A stretch of DNA of 39,913 bases from Granulicoccus phenolivorans DSM 17626 = NBRC 107789 = JCM 15570 (GTDB lineage Bacteria > Actinomycetota > Actinomycetes > Propionibacteriales > Propionibacteriaceae). A model generated the notes under the pieces. That model did not search any database. It was not told where the DNA came from and saw only the letters and a program-made list of their open reading frames with translations. Every line of letters begins with the position of its first letter. The stretch's first letter is position 1. Shown here one piece after another: positions 1 through 39,913 of this stretch. The translations under genes were made by a program, and so were the position numbers. The stretch covers positions 1 through 39,913 of the forward strand of contig NZ_AUHH01000042.1 of the NCBI RefSeq assembly GCF_000423085.1, given 5' to 3'.

Positions 1-40
1 CACCCCAGACTCAGGCACGGGCCTGGGAGGATCGTGCTAT

Positions 41-195
41 TCGCGGGCCGAGGTGCCGTGCGGCGGGCCGGCGTACCTCCCGCGGGCCCTGCAGGGCCCG
101 CACACCCGAACGCGACCCGCGCACCCACAACTCGGCCCGCGAACCACGAGCTCAACCCGCGAACCGCAGGATCAGCCCGCGAACTCTCCCCTACA
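41..195. repeat. Inverted array of degenerate 20-bp units around a CTGCAG palindrome
   Basis: The stretch is gene-free. GCGGGCC cores start at 43, 63 and 82. A perfect 20-bp palindrome (82-101, core GGGCCCTGCAGGGCCC) follows. CCCGC cores in the opposite orientation then start at 97, 116, 136, 156 and 176, so spacing is 19-20 bp throughout. The best-conserved right-hand units are 136-155 and 156-175 (CCCGCGAACC followed by variable bases). The array stops just before the stop codon of the gene at 204. A similarly built array closes the window. Function unknown. Confidence 0.8.
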
Positions 196-203
196 GGCCG
201 GTG

Positions 204-848
204 TCACCCAGCGAGGGCATCGGCGATCGGGGTGTCCCCGGTGTTGAAGGCGATGAACCGACCGATGGTGTCGTCGCGGTGGATGGCCTGGGCCGCCACC
301 TCGGCGACGTCGGCGCGCGGTACCCGGCCGGAGGTGAGGTCCTCGCCGGTCTCGATCCGGCCGGTGCCCGGATCGAGGGTCAGTCCGCTCGGCCCCAGAA
401 TCGTCCATTTCAGCCCGGACGCCTTCAGGTGCTGGTCCGCGGCCGCCTTCGCCTCGGCGTACGGGAAGAAGGAGCTCTCCGGATCCACTCCGTGATCGGG
501 ACCGGCGCCGAGATAGGAGACCATCAGGTAGCGCCCGACCCCGGCCTGCTCGGCGGCATCCATCGACCGGATCGCCGCATCGCGGTCCACCGCGTAGGTG
601 CGCTGCGGATTCCCGCCGCCGGCCCCGGCCGACCAGATCACCGCATCCTGACCCCGCATCAGCGTGGCCAGCGCCTCGGTGTCCAGGGTCTCGATGTCGG
701 CCACCACGGGGGTGGCACCGGCGGCCGCCACCTCGTCGGCGTGCGCGGGATTGCGGATGATCCCGGTCACCCCATCGCCCATCCGCCGCAGTCGGGGCGC
801 CAATTCGAGCGCCACCTTGCCATGTGCTCCGATCACCAGAATCTTCAT
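204..848 (-). CDS. NAD(P)-binding atypical SDR (NAD(P)H-binding / NmrA-like)
   Basis: The protein has 214 residues. It begins MKILVIGAHGKVA, an N-terminal Rossmann strand with a glycine-rich turn of the GxxGxxG type seen in atypical short-chain reductases of the YwnB/NAD(P)H-binding family. A conserved YAEAKAAAD segment and the WTILGPSGLT strand fit this family, whose members act as soluble NAD(P)-dependent reductases or redox sensors; the substrate cannot be told. I chose the ATG at 848 over an in-frame upstream start at 893 because the Rossmann strand begins at once and a -10-like TACGGT (856-861) lies 7 nt upstream. It is divergent from the acyltransferase. Confidence 0.85.
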   Translation of the reverse strand: MKILVIGAHGKVALELAPRLRRMGDGVTGIIRNPAHADEVAAAGATPVVADIETLDTEALATLMRGQDAVIWSAGAGGGNPQRTYAVDRDAAIRSMDAAEQAGVGRYLMVSYLGAGPDHGVDPESSFFPYAEAKAAADQHLKASGLKWTILGPSGLTLDPGTGRIETGEDLTSGRVPRADVAEVAAQAIHRDDTIGRFIAFNTGDTPIADALAG

Positions 849-903
849 GCCCTCCACCGTATCGCCCGGAAGCGATTCGGCACCGGCGCCCACCGGCGCC
901 CCC

Positions 904-39652: not shown

Positions 39653-39739
39653 GTGCCTTCCTGCTCTTCCGGTTCCGGTCAGGCCCGCCCGGTCAAGTCA
39701 TGTGGAGTGGTGCCTTTGGGGCGTTCGTGGGGCGCGGCT

Positions 39740-39913
39740 CGCGGGTTCTCCCGCGGGTCCGCGGGTCTTTCATGACGGGTCCGCGGGTCTCCATGACGGC
39801 TCGCGGGTCCTCATGACGGCTCGCAGGTCCGGATCCGGCCCGCGGCCCCTGCAGCACCCGCGCCACCGAACTCAACCCGCGCCACCGAACTCAACCCGCG
39901 CGATCGCCGGCAG
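39740..39913. repeat. Second inverted array of 20-bp units with CCCTGCAG centre (cut by window end)
   Basis: CGCGGGT cores begin at 39740, 39760, 39782 and 39802, then CGCAGGT at 39822 and CGCGGCC at 39841; two extra half-spaced copies are near 39752. Units at 39782 and 39802 carry TCATGACGG-like tails. The centre is CCCCTGCAG (39846-39854). Inverted CCCGCGCC units then begin at 39857, 39876 and 39895, and the first two are a perfect 19-bp tandem duplication (39856-39893). Orientation switch, centre motif and period all match the array at 41-195. Confidence 0.8.

Follow-up and report, generated by a model that had tools for sequence, protein, structure and literature searches.

Homing endonuclease genes code for a site-specific nuclease able to spread by cut and repair. 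Among the dispersed repeats of bacterial chromosomes, REP elements are hairpins of 20–40 bp carrying a GTAG or CGTC tag (PMC3733652), and their partner gene, flanked by two copies of the repeat, codes for the RAYT protein, a Y1 tyrosine transposase (PMC2817692). As for nucleases, a Caulobacter DUF559 protein has been assigned to the PD-(D/E)XK superfamily and is described as the cause of an SOS response (PMC12907096). The stretch of DNA analysed here (the window, 39,913 nucleotides) is contig C40 of the 4.12-Mb, 74-contig assembly of Granulicoccus phenolivorans (G000), and carries at its left edge a mirrored array that is compared below with these systems.

The left heads of this array (GCGGG) start at positions 43, 63 and 82, with steps of 20 and 19 bp, while the right heads (CCCGC) start at 97, 116, 136, 156 and 176, with steps of 19, 20, 20 and 20 bp; an extra CCCGC at 79 overlaps the innermost left head. 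The palindrome GCGGGCCCTGCAGGGCCCGC is the middle of a 26-bp core, the innermost inverted pair of heads being placed about the CTGCAG at 89–94. The first-pass annotation had described heads running one way, a 20-bp palindrome with a CTGCAG centre, then five reversed CCCGC units at a 19–20-bp spacing, and this description was confirmed. It had also proposed a comparison with shuffled sequence: among 5000 dinucleotide-preserving shuffles of window positions 1–220, the best gave three heads in a mirrored chain, and none (0/5000) reached the eight of the array. The array is noncoding, lying downstream of the 3' end of a minus-strand gene whose stop codon it adjoins, and the description of conserved heads and spacing with diverged interiors holds. 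A strict phase of two helical turns does not, given that the spacing is 19, 20 or 21 bp depending on the genome and the unit. DNA has a helical repeat of 10.5 bp per turn, so that 19–20 bp correspond to ca. 1.8–1.9 turns and the heads drift round the helix instead of keeping strictly to one face. Another element of this family, absent from the first-pass annotation, sits at the opposite (right) end of the window, with left heads CGC[AG]G at 39740, 39760, 39782, 39802, 39822 and 39841, a CTGCAG centre at 39849 and right heads CCGCG at 39858, 39877 and 39896.

Features of the window and the partner gene elsewhere in the G. phenolivorans assembly
Feature	Position	Strand	Basis or remark
Mirrored array	41..195	none	Head positions; shuffle test; BLAST matches at many other places of the assembly; all-against-all match 33-182
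Exact 20-bp palindrome GCGGGCCCTGCAGGGCCCGC	82..101	none	Identical to its own reverse complement
Gene, NAD(P)H-binding-like by eye	204..857	-	Own gene prediction and homologues
Second element, same family	39733..39901	none	Core pattern C40:39841-39861 with 1 mismatch; model R1 match 39800-39901
G. phenolivorans partner gene	contig C32:293-1174	-	Outside the window, between two arrays

The proposal to scan the whole genome for further copies, whose absence would have spoken against the reading, led to a repeat family. BLAST of window positions 1–400 against the G. phenolivorans assembly gave 68 matches, and the core pattern, which fits C40:81-101 without mismatch, had 91 forward and 92 reverse matches (≤3 mismatches) vs. 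29 and 38 for the reversed-pattern control, near-palindromic sites being possibly counted on both strands in these totals. From the fetched loci of this genome, 78 cores (≤3 mismatches) were collected, 62 of which were distinct with 60 bases on each side. On the left, CGCGG occurs before the centre at 8 (48/62), 27 (29/62), 46/47 (47/62) and 66/67 (29/62); on the right, CCGCG occurs after the centre at 3 (47/62), 22 (43/62), 41/42 (44/62) and 60–62 (20/62), which gives steps of 19, 19, then 19–20 bp. Common to the copies are thus two inverted heads that together span 26 bp, with more heads outwards every 19–20 bp. Several of them are clustered, 120–370 bp apart, and several contig ends of the assembly fall within arrays. 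The expansion mechanism suggested earlier is borne out by identical adjoining units, local clusters and dispersed copies. A distant-mode search with the window array found no match in either the plasmid or the phage collection, and an origin from a plasmid or a phage was rejected on that ground. Most likely, the window array represents one of the dispersed, non-autonomous copies of an intergenic repeat specific to the lineage. Some copies in this genome also have the flanks GGTCAAGTC / GACTTGACC in common (window position 39690, L016, L012 and L158), which are possibly the outer ends of longer elements.

When the copies were mapped against gene ends, as had also been proposed, convergent gene pairs were favoured. 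Based on our own gene caller and a hand count, the 25 sites having both neighbours (L157 being left out as ambiguous) comprise 12 convergent, 10 tandem and 3 divergent pairs, vs. 27, 98 and 48, respectively, for the 173 array-free gaps of at least 60 bp in 400 kb of the same genome (convergent, 12/25 vs. 27/173: P = 0.00055). No core was found within the predicted genes of contigs C3 and C5. Such a position downstream of genes, often between convergent ones, together with the GC-rich palindromic centre, is what a structured RNA or a bidirectional transcription terminator would show. However, the RNAalifold consensus of 50 copies contains three pairs (-0.68 kcal/mol), none of which changed on both sides, and the two arms of a copy pair no better with each other than with arms swapped in from another copy, whether in G. 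phenolivorans (22.50 vs. 23.75 pairs in 48 positions, copies oriented by profile) or in the interiors of the Dietzia elements presented below (7.20 vs. 6.99, P = 0.25). Moreover, no Rfam match covers the window array, and separate terminator-like hairpins precede some arrays, as seen by eye in L015 and L227. The folded RNA left open by the first-pass annotation is therefore rejected, and an RNA or terminator origin as a whole is very unlikely.

The same annotation had recognised neither CRISPR nor REP in the array, and both exclusions stood up to the analysis. Against CRISPR are the 19–20-bp period, the two inverted arms and the interiors related between copies. The case of classical REP elements mobilised by a Y1 (RAYT) transposase is closer, the G. 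phenolivorans copies being dispersed, often clustered, species-specific extragenic palindromes. Nevertheless, no Y1_Tnp domain (PF01797) was found in G. phenolivorans, nor in nine of the 12 other array-bearing genomes, and the Y1 genes of the remaining three were read by eye as flanked by other repeats, of the GGGGAC type. Because the transposase is absent from the former and keeps other repeats in the relatives that have it, REP/RAYT is hardly tenable as an explanation. Concerning the tags, neither GTAG nor CGTC occurs in the 50-copy G. phenolivorans consensus; GTAG is present inside the heads of genomes G127 and G008 and of Dietzia. The elements are inverted about a centre, and a clean empty site was not found at the one G127/G008 array site or at the Dietzia loci. 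Y1 (RAYT-like) genes of genus g9 are flanked by GGGGACGGTTCC or GGGGACAGTCCCC repeats (L390-L393, G127:C1:2707373 and L276), which form a distinct system within these genomes.

Beyond G. phenolivorans, the sequence-only family model R1 matched six of the 147 family genomes, one of them its own. By eye, arrays were recognised in its own genome, G055, G158 and G027, and none in G058 and G135; two of the genomes other than its own carry the same architecture with different heads. In an order-level sample, a tandem-head pattern matched 55 of 391 genomes; since its reversed control also matches in several genomes, it was used only to find loci. The innermost inverted pair spans exactly 26 bp in 17 of 50 such loci, belonging to nine genomes (33/50 being without it), and this span was no part of the query. 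The heads themselves are genome-specific: TTCGCGGG in G. phenolivorans, TTCGCTACC in G127 and G008, TTCGCTGCC in G055, TTCGCCTGYCTTG in G047 and G145, TTCGCGTAC-like in G067 and TTCGCCACC in G353. The core TTCGCTACC-N8-GGTAGCGAA (≤1 mismatch) occurs in 0/396 genomes drawn from the phylum, and that head family is thus patchy. A further head pattern, TTCGC-N16-GCGAA, was discarded as uninformative because, among 117 family genomes, it was matched by all kinds of genome, mostly above the reversed control, with matches often coding-like by eye.

When 800 kb of other actinobacterial loci were scanned without regard to the heads, one convincing array emerged, in Dietzia sp. NCCP-2495. This genome has 28 cores (≤3 mismatches; control, 0), and 20 elements with the full 20/26/20 geometry in 20 loci. 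Among the 26 genomes of the named loci, three of Dietzia have 30, 2 and 4 matches (≤2 mismatches), the last two being sister species; the 1–5 matches in six non-Dietzia genomes, of the two-mismatch kind, are read as chance, with eight genomes having control matches. One Dietzia element, L387:1473, is a near-perfect palindrome with an interior unlike that of all other elements, as though the one arm had served as a template for the other. Another element of Dietzia sp. NCCP-2495 is read in frame as an early part of L388:1334-2251, a 305-residue reading frame coding for a short-chain-dehydrogenase-like protein.

Other palindromes were met on the way. An 800-kb stretch of G127 holds a second palindromic family, with GCTACCGA heads, 19-bp steps and a TTGCTGCCGAAA-type centre (e.g. 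at 2444678, 2693118 and 3102326), relatives of which appear to follow the same gene in a further species (L315). In L211 (G376), TTCGCTGGTCGAGCCCGTCGAGACC repeats are spaced by 19 and about 33 bp, and resemble palindromes of other high-GC actinobacteria.

The 300 proteins from 111 array loci were then compared. An AbiEi/DUF559-like family recurs in four loci; it was picked by its look and not by its rank, as ATP-binding and aminotransferase-like families recur in six and five loci, respectively. Its gene lies between two arrays in four genera: G. phenolivorans (L027), G047 (L240), G067 (L222) and G127 (L343), and so does its orthologue in G008 (L341). The G055 homologue has both of its arrays at the 5' end, with none seen past the 3' end. 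A profile of four proteins found five independent array loci in 322 kb, including the G127/G008 orthologue, four of these five matches being those it was built from; elsewhere it found none in 440 kb of G. phenolivorans, one in 800 kb of G127 and none in 800 kb of other actinobacterial loci. In wide windows round arrays of 12 genomes, 19 of the 20 were without a homologue and none of the 20 held a further one. With the G. phenolivorans protein, tblastn retrieved seven PLSDB records, and further ones came from a second query; since secA, purB and gatA are present in the records of Tsukamurella tyrosinosolvens, these were taken as chromosome pieces. No relative of the protein was found in viral contigs. 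Among open-access papers, we recognised no description of these arrays or of an AbiEi/DUF559-repeat pairing, although other wording might find one.

The pairing was also looked at away from arrays: the two 350-bp flanks of each gene were compared with each other and their best local match was scored, with a cut-off of 45 set after the scores had been seen. Fourteen of 19 homologues reached it (range 47–168), vs. three of 806 control genes (0/80 in Tsukamurella; 3/726 in G. phenolivorans and G127). Without the six homologues found through arrays, 9 of the 13 met by sequence search or annotation did so (vs. 3/806; Fisher P = 3.6e-16), as did four of the six examined after the pattern had been noticed (P = 2.9e-8). 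The five failing homologues are those of G055, the second of G127 (L274), T. tyrosinosolvens L424 and L430:6171-7136, and Nonomuraea L435. Two of the three control genes above the cut-off lie beside G. phenolivorans arrays, so that arrays can flank other genes as well, and the third has GGGGACGGTTCC-type repeats in both flanks. The association of repeat and gene is well supported.

The flanking repeats vary with the gene. The Tsukamurella, Arthrobacter and Collinsella homologues, found by protein search, have different repeats, each common to both flanks of the same gene, and even paralogues of one strain differ: CGCTGCCG heads with 19-bp steps in L423, GGGGGA tandem units in L426 and long hairpins in L427 and L431. 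The L427 repeat occurs at 20 places in eight records of the same T. tyrosinosolvens strain, or about half as many copies since palindromes count on both strands, and its best place is outside annotated genes in six of the eight records. Dispersed places were also found for the flanking repeats of L422 (14), L425 (7) and L423 (4).

Change in the arrays could be followed between the close relatives G127 and G008, which have orthologous arrays. All steps are of 20 bp in the eight G127 arrays read, and at least one step of 21 bp occurs in seven of eight G008 arrays. Identical adjoining units show that arrays grow by unit duplication. At one G127/G008 array site, no array was seen by eye in 19 other loci of the genus. 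The interval from gcvT to an amidohydrolase gene holds a single array in G008 and two in G127, in the same orientation and 7.3 kb apart; the intervening segment (L355:3150-10395), absent in G008, codes for an IclR regulator, a Cucumopine_C-domain protein and a peptide ABC transporter. The difference is explained by recombination between arrays, be it a deletion or an insertion. The 7.3-kb segment, along with the two control genes beside G. phenolivorans arrays and the 19/20 wide windows without a homologue, also suits a passive association, in which recombination- and insertion-prone repeats owe their spread to another agent, with AbiEi/DUF559-like genes as cargo that often landed there or was caught between copies. 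Yet the homologues of Tsukamurella, Arthrobacter and Collinsella each come with their own repeat on both flanks, and cargo capture is further disfavoured by each paralogue of one strain having its own; we regard a passive association as rather unlikely, though it is the strongest of the alternatives.

The partner protein has about 300 residues, with an AbiEi-type helix-turn-helix region at the N-terminus and a putative DUF559/REase-like (PD-(D/E)XK-type) region at the C-terminus. AbiEi models match the N-terminal and middle regions of all six proteins tested, which PADLOC names AbiEi, and the G. phenolivorans protein has an AbiEi_4 helix-turn-helix match (E = 2e-5). DUF559 is above cut-off in L274, L427, L431, L432 and L430:6174-7136, with weaker REase_MTES_1575 matches. 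No Pfam nuclease domain was called in the array-flanked proteins of the Propionibacteriaceae type, and their nuclease-type reading comes from an alignment (A3) with DUF559-positive relatives. In 11 aligned homologues, E206, D238, E249, D251 and G252 are invariant, an E, D, ExDG pattern which we take to be that expected of the PD-(D/E)XK fold. Against solved structures, a profile of the six proteins gave only matches to methyltransferases with E = 0.56 or worse. The homologue records name the genes as antitoxins, hypothetical or DUF proteins. An AbiE-type toxin-antitoxin or phage-defence locus with incidental repeats would agree with the AbiEi calls of PADLOC and Pfam, but no AbiEii is annotated among the neighbouring genes of the eight named loci that come with gene tables (L422-L427, L431 and L432) and the gene is a single unit between repeats, which makes such a locus extremely improbable.

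These domains bear on the protein-binding array that the first-pass annotation had kept among its readings, for which the AbiEi/DUF559-like protein would be the candidate binder. According to one version, the arrays are operators: an AbiEi-like helix-turn-helix repressor binds those next to its own gene, and the dispersed copies are regulatory or chromosome-organising. The AbiEi matches of all six proteins, the inverted and tandem half-sites, which may suit cooperative binding, and the arrays' showing no sign of a fold are in line with it. Nonetheless, promoters are not expected between the convergent genes that the arrays favour (12/25 vs. 27/173), repeats are found on both sides of the gene and not upstream alone, the protein has kept a putative nuclease-type domain, and presence at a given site varies between species. 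Operators are consequently improbable.

With some reservation, we favour a single-gene module made of the repeat and the AbiEi/DUF559-like gene, in which the protein would recognise the heads and cut or nick DNA, and repair would spread the repeat. Judged from sequence, recognition of the heads by the protein is likely, and mobilisation of the arrays by it is our best guess. The heads would be half-sites: two inverted ones span the 26-bp core, and others follow at 19–21-bp intervals outwards along both arms. The partner protein would recognise those of its own genome's repeat and cut or nick at the heads or at target sites; repair would then copy the repeat into intergenic sites, unit duplication would lengthen the arms, and recombination between copies would multiply, delete or exchange the adjoining DNA.

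Taken more widely, this module might represent a new class of mobile repeats found widely across Actinomycetota: instead of a transposase, a helix-turn-helix PD-(D/E)XK nuclease would recognise the heads of its own lineage and spread the arrays by cut and repair copying, with one repeat family per paralogue; many high-GC extragenic palindromes would then be footprints of AbiEi/DUF559-like genes. We advance this generalisation with somewhat more doubt than confidence. Many species-specific palindromes of high-GC bacteria have an unexplained origin, and the pairing, if true, would provide an explanation shared by them and the AbiEi/DUF559-like genes. It would also allow a prediction for any genome, from the gene to its flanks and from these to dispersed repeats, and offer a possible nuclease-driven route by which noncoding repeats spread, break assemblies and rearrange chromosomes. 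Array and partner gene point to a little-noticed kind of self-spreading DNA.

As regards the described systems, the likeness to REP/RAYT lies in dispersed, clustered, species-specific extragenic palindromes, in a partner gene flanked by two copies and in partner and repeat sequences that differ together between lineages (PMC2817692). The partner is here an AbiEi/DUF559-like protein instead of a Y1 transposase, and a 26-bp inverted core with arms of 19–21-bp units takes the place of the tagged hairpin (PMC3733652). Like MITEs, the arrays are short noncoding repeats beside genes, occasionally within a reading frame (Dietzia L388), but they come without a demonstrated parent insertion sequence or target duplication, and their arms grow by unit duplication. 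With the Vsr-like/DUF559 PD-(D/E)XK nucleases (PMC12907096), several homologues share the type of C-terminal domain and the invariant acidic residues, whereas the N-terminal AbiEi-type helix-turn-helix region and the flanking cognate repeats are additions. The AbiEi antitoxins of type IV toxin-antitoxin systems correspond to the N-terminal and middle regions of the partner protein, which differs from them by its extra C-terminal domain and by the lack of an AbiEii partner in the annotated loci. Finally, as in homing endonuclease genes, a putative site-specific nuclease gene could spread by cut and repair; in the arrays, however, it would be the recognised sequence itself that spreads.
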